Source of the DNA: Microcaldota archaeon
Lineage (GTDB): Archaea; Micrarchaeota; Micrarchaeia; Micrarchaeales; CABMGC01
Reading direction: 5' to 3'
Length of the DNA: 41,347 bases
NCBI GenBank assembly: GCA_021850625.1
Contig: JAJZLJ010000011.1
Span: forward strand, 1 to 41,347
Both the position numbers and the translations under genes were made by a program. The notes beneath the pieces are model-generated. The model searched no databases. It saw only the letters and a program-made list of their open reading frames with translations, and was not told the DNA's origin. Positions 14,388 to 41,347 of the stretch are shown here, piece after piece; position 1 is the stretch's first letter, and each line of letters opens with the position of its first letter.

Positions 14388-14870
14388 TTAACTGAGAGTC
14401 ATTTCGAGTACTTTTTCGCTTGAATTGCCATTTTTGGAAGAAGAGTTTTTAACAACAAAACCATTTTTTTTAAAAAATGATATCCCGGCAATATTTTTCT
14501 CCGAGATCATAGCGCATATTTTGCAATTGAATAATTTTTTAGATAGATCAATGCATGCTTTTAGAAGCATTGTTCCATAACCTTTTTTTCTACAGCTACT
14601 TTTTATTATTATCCCTATTACAACACAGTTTTCATTTAAAACAGCTTCACACTCTCCGACAACCACACCGTTTTCTAGCCCTACTAGATCTATTATGTGA
14701 TTTGAATTAGCAAGAGACACCTTTGTTGATAATAAAAGATTAAGCTGCATTAGCTCTGGCTTTTTATTGAAGGTTGTAGCATAAGGCGTAGCAGCGTAGG
14801 TTTCAAGAATTATCTCTGTAAGATCAGCTATATCTGGCATTGCTATTGTACGAATTGTAAAATTATTCAT
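14388..14870 (-). CDS. GNAT-family N-acetyltransferase
   Basis: A 160-residue single-domain acetyltransferase. The acetyl-CoA loop is R-K-K-G-Y-G in SSCRKKGYGTMLLKA, preceded by the beta strand CVVIGIIIKSS, and followed by the late FFKKNGF motif typical of the fold. The substrate is unknown. I chose ATG 14870 (MNNFTIRT) over 14885 because a TTAAAAA box at about 14892-14902 then sits at leaderless-promoter distance. The gene is divergent from the histone gene and shares its short upstream region. Confidence 0.82.
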   Translation of the reverse strand: MNNFTIRTIAMPDIADLTEIILETYAATPYATTFNKKPELMQLNLLLSTKVSLANSNHIIDLVGLENGVVVGECEAVLNENCVVIGIIIKSSCRKKGYGTMLLKACIDLSKKLFNCKICAMISEKNIAGISFFKKNGFVVKNSSSKNGNSSEKVLEMTLS

Positions 14871-14922
14871 GGTAAAAATTAGCATAGCAAGGTTTTTAAG
14901 CAGTTTGATGCTATGATTACAT

Positions 14923-17000: not shown

Positions 17001-17243
17001 TGTGGTGCGCGGGTGATTCACGGCTATTATATGGCTGAGGAAGCTCCCTCCATGAAGAGTTTGGTAAGGGTCTAAGGCCCTATTCAGAACAGAAACGATA
17101 CCTTTATGCAACATACGCTATGACACTACGAGCGTTGCAATGAGGATGAAACGGCTGATGTACCGACAATGAACATGCAAGGCGAAATTACGCCGCTTAG
17201 TCTAATATCACCTAAAACAGAAGAGGGGCTACGGCGCACCACA
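17001..17243 (+). ncRNA. rnpB: RNase P RNA
   Basis: The catalytic RNA that trims tRNA 5' leaders. The ends pair as helix P1: TGTGGTGCGC (17001-17010) with GCGCACCACA (17234-17243). P2 pairs GGTGAT (near 17012) with ATCACC (near 17207). Helix P4 pairs AGCTCCCTC (17042-17050) with GAGGGGCT (17223-17230) with one extra base, as in all RNase P RNAs. Universal blocks GAGGAAG (just before P4), ACAGAAACGATACC, GAGGATGAAACGG (17142-17153) and ACAGAAGAGGGGCT (17217-17230) are present, as are hairpins AGGGTC-TAA-GGCCCT and GGCG...CGCC. At about 243 nt it is compact for an archaeal molecule. Confidence 0.93.
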
Positions 17244-19063: not shown

Positions 19064-20179
19064 TTATGATAAATATTCTTTATTCTTTATCTTTTCACGT
19101 ACGTAGTCTCCTACAAAGGTAAGTCTAGGACCTTGAAGCGCGTCCTGCTCTAATTTTATTTTGGATTTTATCATGCGTTTAAGTTCTAACTCCCAATCTT
19201 CATGCATCTTTATCCATTCGTAATTCAACATCTCTTGCGCTCTCTTAAGGTCTACATCTGTTGCTTTCATAGTAAGTTTATTTAGGAACTCATATTTGTC
19301 AAGATCAGACATTGTAACTCCTAGAAAACGAGCTTCAGGAGTAGCGACATCTGCGCCTATATATGCAAGATTTATACTCCCGGTTTTTATAGTCCAATAA
19401 ATATACCATCCCCATGCGTCAGAATCTGTAAAGATATAGATAGGTAAACCCTTGTCTGCTAATTTTCTTATTAGTCTTCTGCAACCCCTTGCGGCTTGCC
19501 CTTGAGGAGTAATAAGTATGGCATTCTCTTTTTTCCAGAATAAATCTTCATTCAATCTTTGCCAAAGTGCATCTTTTTCTACTACAAGCACATACTTTGC
19601 CTTAACATCTACAAACTCTATATCATTATCTACATCGCTAGGTATTGCCCATCCGCTCCTACCCTGTTTTGAACAATCTATCTCTATCTTTTCATTTCCA
19701 AATGTATCTATTATACGCATATTTCCTGCAAGAACCCCTTTTCTATTTGCATTTAAATTAAGATTCTCTCTTTTAAGTGATAGAGCAACCTCTATGTCCT
19801 CTATCAACGGATTCGATTCTGCTTGTTCACTAAAGACGTTTTCATCTACATCATCGCCTAGTGAAAATTTGAGCTGATAGAAAAGTCCTCTTATTGTAGT
19901 GTGCAGACCTTCCTTTACAAATCTATGACACTTTGCAGCTATAGCTATAGTTTGCATAAATCTTTTTGACTGTGCTACATTTATAAAATTTCTTTCTTCT
20001 TTTGCACTTCCCAATCTTAAATAACCATTCTTCTGATCAAATATTATATTTGAACGTGTTCTAGCGGTTGTAGTGAATTTAGGATTTGAACCATTTTTAA
20101 TATCGCGAACTATATTTGAGCCAAGTTCCTCTATCTTCTCTTCTGGTTTTATCTTATTTTCCTTGCTGTTTTTACTCAT
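19064..20179 (-). CDS. top6A: DNA topoisomerase VI subunit A (Spo11-like)
   Basis: A 371-residue catalytic subunit that cuts both DNA strands through tyrosine. The catalytic tyrosine is Y101 in TTIRGLFYQLK. The Toprim metal ligands are E201 (VVEKDA) and D252/D254 in FTDSDAWGWYIYW. Most Top6A proteins have D-x-D-P here, so the alanine after D254 is unusual. Length is normal. Top6A usually needs Top6B, often encoded next to it, but the neighbours here are lonB and a HEAT-like gene. Either B lies elsewhere or this is an orphan Spo11-type protein. Confidence 0.92.
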   Translation of the reverse strand: MSKNSKENKIKPEEKIEELGSNIVRDIKNGSNPKFTTTARTRSNIIFDQKNGYLRLGSAKEERNFINVAQSKRFMQTIAIAAKCHRFVKEGLHTTIRGLFYQLKFSLGDDVDENVFSEQAESNPLIEDIEVALSLKRENLNLNANRKGVLAGNMRIIDTFGNEKIEIDCSKQGRSGWAIPSDVDNDIEFVDVKAKYVLVVEKDALWQRLNEDLFWKKENAILITPQGQAARGCRRLIRKLADKGLPIYIFTDSDAWGWYIYWTIKTGSINLAYIGADVATPEARFLGVTMSDLDKYEFLNKLTMKATDVDLKRAQEMLNYEWIKMHEDWELELKRMIKSKIKLEQDALQGPRLTFVGDYVREKIKNKEYLS

Positions 20180-35626: not shown

Positions 35627-35769
35627 GATATTCACTGTAATATTATATTCATATACAAGGATAAGTATTTTAGCTTAGATTGCATTACGTCAGTTGCATA
35701 ACCACTGGCTAAGGCTATAAAGCCATATCTCTAGCTTAAATAAACGGTGTTACCAGTAAAGTGTTTACT

Positions 35770-37506
35770 ATGACTAATGTATGTGTCAGAATAGCAGGAG
35801 CAAATGGAGATGGAGTAGAGTCAAGCGGAGGCTTGTTGGTCAAAATAGCAGCTAGAAATGGACTTAAGGTTTTTGGTTATAGAGGTTATCAATCAATAAT
35901 TAGAGGAGGACATGTATGGTATCAAATACGTATAGGTGATGAAAAACTATACGGACATGGAAATAAAGTAGATATACTTATAGCATTAAACCAGGATGGA
36001 ATAAAAAATCAGAAGAACCATCTAAACAAAGGAGCATTTGTAATTTATGATAATACTAAAGTTAATGTTGATTTACTTAAAGGATTAGATGTAAAATTAA
36101 TAGGAATCCCTTTGCTTGATATTGCTGTAACAACAAGCGGAGATCCTATTATGCGCAATACAGTTGCAGTAGGCGCAGTAATAAAACTTCTAGGAATATC
36201 AATGGAGGCATTTGAACAGGTAATTACATCTATGTTTGGCAGAAAGGGTGAAAAAACAGTAAAGGACAATATAGTAGCAGCAAGCAAGGGCTTTAATTTC
36301 GAGGGAGTTGTTAGCAGTTATAAATTAATTGGAGATGGAAAACAGCGATACTCAATGGATGGGAATACTGCATTGTCTATAAGTGCTTATGCTTCAGGAT
36401 GCAAGTTTTATGCTGCATATCCTATGACACCTGCAAGCGGAATATTACATTGGTTTGCAGCTCACGACCATAAAGGCGTTCTGTTCAAGCAAAGTGAAGA
36501 TGAAATAGCAGCAATAAACATGGCTATAGGAGCTTCGTATGCTGGCGTACGAGCTATGTGCGGAACAAGTGGAGGAGGCTTTTCATTGATGACAGAAGCA
36601 CTTGGTTATGCTGGCATGATAGAAACACCACTAGTAGTTGTAGAGTCACAAAGAACAGGCCCTAGTACCGGTCTTCCAACAAAAACCGAACAAGCAGATC
36701 TTCTTTTTGTAATGCATGCTTCACAAGGAGAATATCCTAGAATAGTTGTAGCACCTAGAGACATTGATGAATGTTTTACAATAACAACCCAGGCATTTAA
36801 TCTTGCAGATAAATATCAATGTCCAGTAATAATACTAATGGATTTGTTTATATCAGAACATATTGAGACGATTGAAGGTTTTGATGCTTCTTCAGTTAAG
36901 ATAGAGCGCGGAAAAATAACAATGACAAATACTGGCGGAGGCAGATTTAAACGTTATGAATATAGCGAAGATGGAGTATCTTCTCGTTCTATCCCTGGAA
37001 CAAAAGGCACTGAGTTTATAGCGCCTACAGATGAACATGATGAGTATGGCGATTTAATAAGCGATGCGTTTTCTGGACTTGATGAATATGTAGAGATGCG
37101 CGTAAAAATGCATGAAAAACGTATGCGAAAGATGGATATGATGCTTAAGAATGAGGAATATTTTGTTCCTAAGATTGAAAACCCTTCTGCAAAAATCTTT
37201 CTCGTAACTTTCGGATCGACTACCGAAGCGGTAAGAGAAGCAGTTGTTCTTCTCAATAAAAAAGGATTCGAATTTGGAGTAATATCATTTAATTACCTAC
37301 TCCCACTTGATAAAGAAAAAACCACAGCTATATTACAAGGCAAAAAATTAATAGATGTAGAATGCAATTACACAGCCCAACTTGCACAGGTAATTATGAT
37401 GAATACAGGAATTGATATAAAAAATAAGATTTTGAAGTATGATGGTGAGGCAATAACCGGAGAAGAGATAGCCGAGAAGGTAGAAAAACTCTATAATTCA
37501 ATGTGA
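35770..37506 (+). CDS. 2-oxoacid:ferredoxin oxidoreductase, fused gamma-alpha subunit
   Basis: A 578-residue subunit of the CoA-acylating oxidoreductase that oxidises pyruvate, 2-oxoglutarate or related acids and reduces ferredoxin. Residues 1-180 are the gamma domain (IAGANGDGVESSGGLL, RGGHVWYQIRIG); the alpha part follows with YPMTPASG (217-224), the family's YPITP motif, and QSEDEIAAINMAIGASYAG. The frame is open from GTG 35761, but ATG 35770 fits the conserved start. A TTAAATA box lies about 30 bases upstream. It forms an operon with the beta gene four bases later. The substrate cannot be fixed from sequence. Confidence 0.94.
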   Translation: MTNVCVRIAGANGDGVESSGGLLVKIAARNGLKVFGYRGYQSIIRGGHVWYQIRIGDEKLYGHGNKVDILIALNQDGIKNQKNHLNKGAFVIYDNTKVNVDLLKGLDVKLIGIPLLDIAVTTSGDPIMRNTVAVGAVIKLLGISMEAFEQVITSMFGRKGEKTVKDNIVAASKGFNFEGVVSSYKLIGDGKQRYSMDGNTALSISAYASGCKFYAAYPMTPASGILHWFAAHDHKGVLFKQSEDEIAAINMAIGASYAGVRAMCGTSGGGFSLMTEALGYAGMIETPLVVVESQRTGPSTGLPTKTEQADLLFVMHASQGEYPRIVVAPRDIDECFTITTQAFNLADKYQCPVIILMDLFISEHIETIEGFDASSVKIERGKITMTNTGGGRFKRYEYSEDGVSSRSIPGTKGTEFIAPTDEHDEYGDLISDAFSGLDEYVEMRVKMHEKRMRKMDMMLKNEEYFVPKIENPSAKIFLVTFGSTTEAVREAVVLLNKKGFEFGVISFNYLLPLDKEKTTAILQGKKLIDVECNYTAQLAQVIMMNTGIDIKNKILKYDGEAITGEEIAEKVEKLYNSM

Positions 37507-37510
37507 TTTT

Positions 37511-38422
37511 ATGGCAGAAAATATTACAAATCAAAATATAACACAAGGAGCAAAAACAAAACAAGTGTATACATCTACAAATAAGCCAATATGGTGCGCA
37601 GGTTGCGGTGATTACTCTGTATTTGCCTCAATAAACAAAGCACTTACTGAACTAGGTATAGATAAGAGCAGTGTTGCTATTGTATCTGGAATAGGATGCA
37701 GCTCTGCTATGCCACATTCGTTTAGCACATATGGTGTTCATAGTTTACATGGACGTTTACTCCCTACTGCAACTGGAATAAAACTTGCAAATTCTTCCTT
37801 AACTGTGATAGGAACAGGAGGAGATGGAGACGGATATGGAATAGGTGGCGGCCATTTGATGCATACTGCGAGAAGAAACTTAGATATGACATATATAATA
37901 ATGGATAATGAAACGTATGGCTTAACTACAGGACAGACCTCTCCTACAGCTCTTTTAGGTCATAAAACCAAATCCACACCATTTGGTGTTATAGAGATGC
38001 CTGTAAATCCTATGGCACTCGCAATAAGCGCAGGGGCAACTTATGTTGCAAGAGGTTTTTCTGGAGACGTGGCACACCTATCGCAGCTAATTAAAGGTGG
38101 AATAGAACACAAAGGTTTTGCACTCATAGATATCTTTAGTCCATGTGTTACATTTAATCATGATAACACCTATGATTGGTTTCGTCCTAGAATTTATAAA
38201 CTTGATAGTGTTGGTCACGATCCATCAAATCTTAATGCTGCTATGGAAAAAGCATTCGAGGATGTTCAGACTAAATATGAAAAGATACCAATAGGTCTTT
38301 TCTATAAGACCTCACGCCCTACATATGAAGATCTTGAGTTATCCTTCAAAAATGGACCGCTAGTAAAACAGGAGATGCCAACAAAAGAACAGATACAATC
38401 AATACTCGAAGAAAATTTATAA
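37511..38422 (+). CDS. 2-oxoacid:ferredoxin oxidoreductase, beta subunit
   Basis: A 303-residue thiamine diphosphate-binding subunit. The diphosphate/Mg motif is GDGDGYGIGGGH (104-115) with N133 downstream in MDNETYG. The four cysteines that hold the [4Fe-4S] cluster are C29 and C32 (WCAGCGD), C63 (GIGCSS) and C212 (SPCVTF). Together with the fused alpha-gamma subunit this makes the two-subunit form known from Sulfolobus, Thermoplasma and haloarchaea, which has no delta ferredoxin subunit. The electron acceptor must be a separate ferredoxin. Confidence 0.95.
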   Translation: MAENITNQNITQGAKTKQVYTSTNKPIWCAGCGDYSVFASINKALTELGIDKSSVAIVSGIGCSSAMPHSFSTYGVHSLHGRLLPTATGIKLANSSLTVIGTGGDGDGYGIGGGHLMHTARRNLDMTYIIMDNETYGLTTGQTSPTALLGHKTKSTPFGVIEMPVNPMALAISAGATYVARGFSGDVAHLSQLIKGGIEHKGFALIDIFSPCVTFNHDNTYDWFRPRIYKLDSVGHDPSNLNAAMEKAFEDVQTKYEKIPIGLFYKTSRPTYEDLELSFKNGPLVKQEMPTKEQIQSILEENL

Positions 38423-39687: not shown

Positions 39688-39719
39688 TAGAAAATTAAGT
39701 GTAATGATTAGTGAATGTC

Positions 39720-41347
39720 ATGGCTAAAAAATTAAAAATGCCCTGTAAACAGCAAAATGAGGTTTCTAAAGGCAACACAGCTACAAATTTAATTAGTGAT
39801 ACGTTTGAGAAGAGATTTGAATATTGTGTAGAAGAAATGGAGAAATTAAATACTGTGAGAGAGTACTTAAAAGCAATCAGATGTACAGGAAGGGTAGAGT
39901 TATTTACAGATGAAAGAGTTATAACTTTTGCAAAGGAGTTAGGATCTAATGCTGCGAAGGAGTACTTTCATGCAATCGCAGATACAAAAGCAGTAGATGC
40001 GCTTATAAATGAAAAGGTTATGGGTTTTGCAAAGGAGTTAGGATCTAATGCTGCGAAGAAGTACTTTAAAGTAATCGCAGATACAAAAGCAGTAGAGGTA
40101 CTTACGAATGAAGGAGTACTCACGAAAAATGTTATAAATTTTGCAAATGAGTTAGGGTATGATGCTGCGGAAATATACTTTAAAGCAATCACCGATACAA
40201 AAGCAGTAGATGTACTTACGAATGAAAATGTTATGAACTTTGCGAAAGAGTTAGGGTATGATGCTGCAGTAGGGTACTTCGACGAAATCAGAAAAATAAG
40301 AACAGTAGATGCACTCATAAATAGAGAAATACTCCTACAGAATATCATAAATTTTGCGAAGGAGTTAGGGCCTGATGCTGCGAAGATGTACTTTAAAACA
40401 ATTGTAGATACAAAGGCAATAGACGCACTTACGAATGAAAAAGTACTCACGGAAAATGTTATAAATTTTGCGAAGGAATTAGGGCCTTATGCTGCGGAAG
40501 GATACTTCTACGCAATAGCAAATACAAAAGCAGTAGAGGTACTTACGAATGAAAAGGTTATGGGCTTTGCGAGGGAGTTAGGGCCTGATGCTACAGAGGA
40601 GTACTTCTACGCAATCGCAGATACAAAAGCAGTAGAGGTACTTACGAATGAAAGAATTATAAATTTTGCAAAGGAGTTAGGGTCTGATGCTGCAGAGATG
40701 TATTTTAAAGCAATCGCAGATACAAAAGCAGTAGAGGTACTTACGAATGAAAATTTTACAACAAAAAAATCAGCTGAACTTTTAAAGTATCTTGAATACG
40801 GTAGTTATTTCAAAGAGGTAGCAATTACAAGAAATCCTGAGCTTCTTAAAAGAGGTGCAATTGCGATTGCTATAAGTGCAGGTTCTGATTTTTCCACTTT
40901 AATCAAATCAAAAGGTATAATAAAAGATGCAATAGACTATTATGATTTGCTCTCGAAATCACTCAGAAATATTGGAGAGATGGAAGATGTAGAGATAAAC
41001 TATGATGAAGAGTTTTGTAGAATTGCAATGGCCCATGTTAAGAATGGTAGTGCAACTTTACTTATTCATGATATTGCAAGTACGGCATACGAGATAAATA
41101 GTAAAAAATTACTTAGTATAGATATGAATACATTGTTTTCTATGGGTCCTAATAAGATAAAACAGTATGTACAAAAATCAATTTTACCAGTATTTGAAAA
41201 GTTTGGAATAAAAGGATATATGGCATTTGACATAGAAGAATCATTTATTCTATTAAAAGATATAGAGTATATTGAAAAAAATTCTAAACAGTTAAATGCT
41301 TTTATTGAAAGAAGGATTAATAATTTAAAGCAGATATCTCCATTCAA
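39720..41347 (+). CDS. alpha-helical tandem-repeat protein, 3' end outside the window
   Basis: An open frame of at least 542 codons, beginning at ATG 39720 (MAKKLKMPCKQQNEV) and running off the window without a stop. A helical start (about 1-58) precedes eight tandem repeats (residues 59-337) with consensus V-E-V-L-T-N-E-K-V-I-N-F-A-K-E-L-G-x-D-A-A-E-x-Y-F-K-A-I-A-D-T-K-A and one degraded ninth. After them comes non-repeated helical sequence to the window end. The repeats look like a two-helix solenoid of the HEAT/TPR type, probably a protein-binding scaffold. There is no signal peptide or membrane helix in the visible part, so it is cytosolic as far as can be seen. I recognise no family. Confidence 0.8.
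   Translation, partial: MAKKLKMPCKQQNEVSKGNTATNLISDTFEKRFEYCVEEMEKLNTVREYLKAIRCTGRVELFTDERVITFAKELGSNAAKEYFHAIADTKAVDALINEKVMGFAKELGSNAAKKYFKVIADTKAVEVLTNEGVLTKNVINFANELGYDAAEIYFKAITDTKAVDVLTNENVMNFAKELGYDAAVGYFDEIRKIRTVDALINREILLQNIINFAKELGPDAAKMYFKTIVDTKAIDALTNEKVLTENVINFAKELGPYAAEGYFYAIANTKAVEVLTNEKVMGFARELGPDATEEYFYAIADTKAVEVLTNERIINFAKELGSDAAEMYFKAIADTKAVEVLTNENFTTKKSAELLKYLEYGSYFKEVAITRNPELLKRGAIAIAISAGSDFSTLIKSKGIIKDAIDYYDLLSKSLRNIGEMEDVEINYDEEFCRIAMAHVKNGSATLLIHDIASTAYEINSKKLLSIDMNTLFSMGPNKIKQYVQKSILPVFEKFGIKGYMAFDIEESFILLKDIEYIEKNSKQLNAFIERRINNLKQISPF
39894..40730 (+). repeat. eight in-frame tandem repeats of 99 or 114 bp
   Basis: Units start at 39894, 39993, 40092, 40206, 40305, 40419, 40533 and 40632; a partial ninth starts at 40731. 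Lengths are 33, 33, 38, 33, 38, 38, 33 and 33 codons: the long form has five extra residues (as in GVLTKN or KVLTEN) between the two helices. Unit 4 is the most divergent at its end (RKIRT in place of ADTKA). DNA identity between some units is very high (for example GTAGAGGTACTTACGAATGA at several starts), pointing to recent duplication or gene conversion. Confidence 0.9.

Follow-up and report, generated by a model that had tools for sequence, protein, structure and literature searches.

A repeat gene cut by the contig end

The window, meaning the whole stretch of 41,347 nucleotides analysed here, is the entire contig C3 of an archaeal genome (G000; 807,689 bases in 32 contigs), and its features are collected in Table 1. 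The contig ends inside a gene, here called W, which starts with an ATG at 39720 (a GTG at 39711 is also possible) and whose frame is still open at 41347. An earlier, sequence-only reading had described this gene as an array of eight repeats of two lengths in no fixed order, differing by five residues at one constant place. The unit lengths are indeed 33, 33, 38, 33, 38, 38, 33 and 33, followed by a partial ninth unit diverging after 16 residues, so that the count of eight holds for full units and becomes nine if the last one is included. In all 38-residue units of W the insert (TKNVI, LQNII or TENVI) lies between 'LTNEKVx' and 'xFAKELG'. The near-identity of the DNA copies, also part of that reading, is true of the unit starts and weaker over full units, which share 67-88% DNA identity with one another, unit 1 being diverged.

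Table 1. Features of the window, in window coordinates.
Feature	Coordinates	Strand	Remarks
Archaeal RNase P RNA	17001-17243		
Neighbour ORF, 349 aa	38504..39553	+	G005 relative shares a contig with korAB and speD
54-bp upstream segment	39666..39719	+	presumed promoter/leader; same in the C8 paralog
Gene W	39720..41347	+	545-aa open frame: N-terminus, array, part of helical middle; contig end at 41347
N-terminal 48 residues preceding the array	39720..39863	+	81% aa identity with paralog
Unit 1, 33 aa	39864..39962	+	diverged; 88% DNA identity with paralog unit 1
Unit 2, 33 aa	39963..40061	+	
Unit 3, 38 aa	40062..40175	+	insert TKNVI 40122-40136
Unit 4, 33 aa	40176..40274	+	
Unit 5, 38 aa	40275..40388	+	insert LQNII 40335-40349
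Unit 6, 38 aa	40389..40502	+	insert TENVI 40449-40463
Unit 7, 33 aa	40503..40601	+	
Unit 8, 33 aa	40602..40700	+	
Unit 9, partial	40701..40748	+	repeat pattern lost afterwards
Helical region 3' of the array	40749..41347	+	597 bp with 97.3% DNA identity to paralog

The genes korAB (35761-38422, named by eye from the sequence) lie just upstream of W. The window korB (37511-38422) has no intein; korB of the same-genus genome G005 (L140:13440-15452, contig C12) contains one with a LAGLIDADG domain. The neighbour ORF has no Pfam match; its relatives of 539 aa (G005) and 589 aa (G003) have N-termini that look Hint-like by eye, and a Pfam search with these gave no match.

A complete paralog and a probable tandem pair

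The protein had been expected to run past the window, as the open frame and a full-length paralog found on contig C8 both bear out. This paralog, gene E, comprises 954 codons from a GTG or 951 from the ATG equivalent to that of W, and its ten full units (33, 33, 38, 38, 38, 38, 36, 33, 33 and 33 residues) are followed by a partial eleventh. Upstream of E, contig C8 ends within another copy, of which the last 99 codons are present with 95% amino acid identity; the 126 bp where the contig ends are identical between this further copy and E. The 99-codon fragment is most simply the 3' end of W. C8 also carries speD (L008:2031-2549, again named by eye from the sequence), and in G005 a single contig carries korB (ending at C12:15452) and, some 4 kb further on, speD (starting near 20070), together with a relative of the neighbour ORF that likewise links C3 to C8. 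It is therefore very likely, judging from gene order, that C3 and C8 are neighbours with a tandem W/E pair between them, and the GNAT-fold-like C-terminus of W, known from the paralog and relatives, would lie beyond the contig end. Just downstream of E, a tRNA of 113 bases (L008:4150-4262) is found by Rfam, not by ARAGORN, and probably contains an intron.

The arrays recombine in frame

Comparison of W with E revealed nearly constant flanks around changing arrays. No difference is seen over the 54 bp that precede the genes, and identity is 89.6% over the initial 144 coding bp and 97.3% over the 597 bp after the array, while the number of full units (8 in W versus 10 in E) and their order differ. 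Inner units show no positional correspondence between the genes, and their mean DNA identity is 77% within W, 75% within E and 76% between the two. Over positions with the same amino acid, synonymous codon agreement was 0.786 in W and 0.821 in E, whereas 500 rounds of synonymous shuffling within each gene never exceeded 0.578 and 0.572, respectively, so that protein constraint alone is insufficient to account for the DNA similarity. Exact in-frame matches are up to 40 bp (W) and 87 bp (E) long, and no long exact match out of frame was detected in either array. Nearly constant flanks, differing unit number and order and synonymous agreement above all shuffles together indicate that the arrays recombine in frame. 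The sequence-only proposal that the array is expanding or being homogenised is thereby upheld; its suggestion of phase variation is not, since long exact matches that all lie in frame imply a change of unit number and order rather than an on/off switch. Codon changes between W and E affect 33 of 114 codons in the N-terminus and units 1-2 and 15 of 199 after the array, a density about four times higher in the former.

The same behaviour was observed across genomes. Among 49 units from 8 arrays of 7 genomes, the nearest unit came from the same genome in 42 cases (shuffled-label maximum 21), and the unit arrays thus evolve in concert. Two-length arrays occur elsewhere with units of 32/38 (G042), 33/36 (G129 and G252) and 32/37 residues (G032); several families of the class have expanded arrays. 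Identity at fourfold sites is high for G005 (1.00) and G129 (0.90), at expectation for G252C93 and near expectation for G032; by this measure some arrays appear freshly homogenised and others old. Mis-assembly as the source of such arrays was ruled out, because the G042 homologue (1051 residues, 32/38-type array) is located inside a single contig of 952,257 bp and its array is therefore real. The exact array length in G000 may nevertheless be affected by assembly.

A predicted solenoid of an unrecognised repeat family

An AlphaFold2 model of the window protein, built from one sequence and with a mean pLDDT of 54, displays three helices per unit, with a pLDDT of about 70-85 over large parts of the array. 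Its best Foldseek matches include armadillo, importin-alpha and PUF proteins, with TM-scores of about 0.1-0.3; one match has an E-value below 1e-3, at a TM-score of about 0.2. W is thus predicted to be an alpha-solenoid of three-helix units followed by a helical middle region. Positions Y1, I5, F22 and L26 in the unit core are invariant or nearly so and exposed positions vary; unit variability tracks the exposed face of helix B, as would be expected of any amphipathic helix.

Like armadillo, HEAT and PUF solenoids, the array would stack tandem three-helix units, but its unit of 33 or 38 residues differs from those of armadillo (about 42) and PUF (36) repeats, and these families show no sequence match to the window protein. 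Single-sequence Pfam and NCBIfam searches with the window or C8 protein gave nothing above cut-off on the repeats, Pfam gave no ARM, HEAT or PUF match for either protein, and a PDB profile search returned no credible sequence match and no ARM, HEAT or PUF chain. For TPR and Sel1, Pfam yielded only PF25756 (INTS8 TPR), below cut-off and across 22 residues. With HEAT, TPR and Sel1 all searched and no confident match obtained, the family stays unrecognised, as first supposed. Single-sequence PHROGs and PADLOC matches on the repeats were weak, sub-threshold and mutually inconsistent, and repeated 20-residue partial matches to Bagel designed beta-propellers among the PDB profile matches were dismissed.

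A C-terminal GNAT-fold-like domain lacking the canonical P-loop

The C-terminal domain of the family was modelled in the distant homologue L099 (AlphaFold, 11 rows), where its pLDDT is mostly 84-93. In a Foldseek search of the PDB the top 50 matches were essentially all GNAT proteins (probability 1.00), the best E-value being 3e-3; GNATs also make up the majority of the best matches in BFVD. The likeness is found by fold only: PF13480, a GNAT family of Pfam, matches one of nine members, at E 0.14 and below cut-off. The subfamily of the window protein and the folded L099 subfamily are linked by profile comparison (99.5%, E 1.3e-22, about 22% identity). We conclude that the C-terminal domain of the family is predicted to adopt a GNAT fold.

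The canonical GNAT P-loop reads Gln/Arg-x-x-Gly-x-Gly/Ala (PMC4964394). This motif (Q/RxxGxG/A), which lies between strand 4 and helix 3, was found in 0 of 31 relatives, whereas an ordinary GNAT of the window (14388-14885), serving as positive control, carries RKKGYG. Acetyl transfer is doubtful because the P-loop is missing in all 31. Conserved in the domain family are an invariant Cys, an Asp and VDSxEG. The predicted likeness to GNAT superfamily acetyltransferases such as RimI, Ard1 and PanZ concerns the fold; in place of the canonical loop the relatives have the Cys and VDSxEG. N-terminal acetyltransferase complexes of the NatA type join an alpha-helical repeat auxiliary subunit with a GNAT catalytic subunit, a combination that the predicted architecture would resemble. 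In NatA, however, these are separate subunits with another repeat; the present proteins unite both parts in one polypeptide with near-identical recombining units, lack the P-loop and have so far been seen in Micrarchaeota only.

Distribution of the family and reuse of the repeat module

Of 164 genomes of the order, 22 encode larger proteins that end in the C-terminal domain, which is about 315 residues long, and strict matches to the repeat profile occur in 14 of 301 genomes of the phylum. Named profile relatives are nearly all Candidatus Micrarchaeota, across which the family is patchy; a genome-contig scan with the whole C8 protein as query yielded no relatives. Family proteins measure roughly 450-1050 residues. 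The Micrarchaeota genomes searched are nearly all under about 1.2 Mb, and several hold one to five paralogs. The family is probably under-counted, since short-read assemblies seem to be broken by the arrays. All five GNAT-like paralogs of G011 (L029-L033) are no more than about 5 kb from a contig end, and most arrays in other genomes are placed likewise; these ends are probably assembly breaks. G010 carries two tandem GNAT-like members 13 bp apart (L034:4899-9003) devoid of near-identical repeats. Gene neighbourhoods vary among genomes and indicate no pathway.

Many relatives have only 3-5 diverged units. In five Micrarchaeota proteins (L037, L122, L044, L045 and L046) such units form an N-terminal module common with W, and a B12-binding domain (PF02310) with a long, mostly low-complexity tail replaces the GNAT-like domain. 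In G251, which together with G252 belongs to another family within the class, near-identical units precede a nucleotidyltransferase-like domain and TPR, with Pfam scores just below cut-off. A third C-terminal type (L155, L159 and L160) is similar by eye and was left out, as hhalign gives no support for homology.

An intracellular adaptor with a changing binding surface?

As the best explanation, to which we give about even credence, these genes would encode, in tandem, an intracellular adaptor in which a recombining solenoid selects the ligand for an atypical GNAT-fold domain. The N-terminal alpha-solenoid, with its units of two interchangeable lengths, would provide a modular binding surface and be connected by a helical linker to the C-terminal domain, which may act on, or sense, the ligand held by the solenoid. 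Recombination within and between tandem copies would add, remove or swap units in frame, shifting the binding surface while the promoter and the C-terminal part are kept constant. A cytosolic location is predicted, from the GNAT-fold-like C-terminal domain and from a scan of the window protein and family members that detected no transmembrane segment.

The main rival is that the arrays result from neutral repeat dynamics, slippage and unequal recombination with no selection on array content; the protein would then be a scaffold largely indifferent to its number of repeats, and recent duplication or gene conversion alone would explain why the flanks are nearly identical. Changes between W and E in the N-terminus and units 1-2 (25 non-synonymous, 8 synonymous) are close to neutral, those after the array number 9 and 6, respectively, over 199 codons, and the many relatives with few, diverged units fit this reading as well. 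We nevertheless hold it to be somewhat unlikely: the reading frame is intact across both arrays, the four core positions are kept, or nearly so, while exposed ones vary, and array expansion recurs in several families of the class.

An intracellular sensor of viruses or other elements, combining a fast-changing recognition array with an effector domain, would agree with a patchy, multi-copy, lineage-specific family and with the swapping of GNAT-like, B12-binding and nucleotidyltransferase-like C-terminal domains. This is improbable, as no PADLOC match rises above trivial scores, no defence neighbourhood was seen and an IMG/VR search with the C-terminal profile found no viral homologues. Very improbable is a PUF- or TALE-like protein that binds nucleic acids sequence-specifically, reading one base per unit: a similar unit length of 33, three-helix units and weak Foldseek PUF matches among armadillo proteins speak for it, but the arrays of W and E are acidic (pI 4.9 and 4.4), TM-scores are low, PUF and TALE chains are absent from the PDB profile matches (for TALE, up to E 10) and neither family is among the Pfam matches listed, and both readings were set aside. 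Least probable of all is the host contact suggested by the sequence-only reading, through a surface or secreted protein: in its favour is the presence of a large repeat protein in a presumably host-dependent archaeon of reduced genome, and archaea of this sort do have large repeat proteins at the surface, although these are of the beta-propeller/PKD type (PMC5498576). Here the N-terminus is not signal-peptide-like by eye, no transmembrane stretch was found in the proteins scanned and full-length members end in a GNAT-like domain.

The adaptor reading allows a broader version, which we advance tentatively and consider rather unlikely, whereby DPANN archaea would possess a self-diversifying intracellular recognition system. 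In it, in-frame recombination among the two-length solenoid units of tandem genes would give new targets to a GNAT-fold enzyme that is non-canonical and possibly cysteine-dependent, the same module being mounted also on B12-binding and nucleotidyltransferase-like effectors. A GNAT-fold domain without the CoA loop may represent new chemistry, or a sensor. In some genomes the turnover of the array outpaces that of the remaining gene. Together with the retention of paralogs in small genomes, this suggests that the protein has a function that repays its cost and that its binding surface changes.
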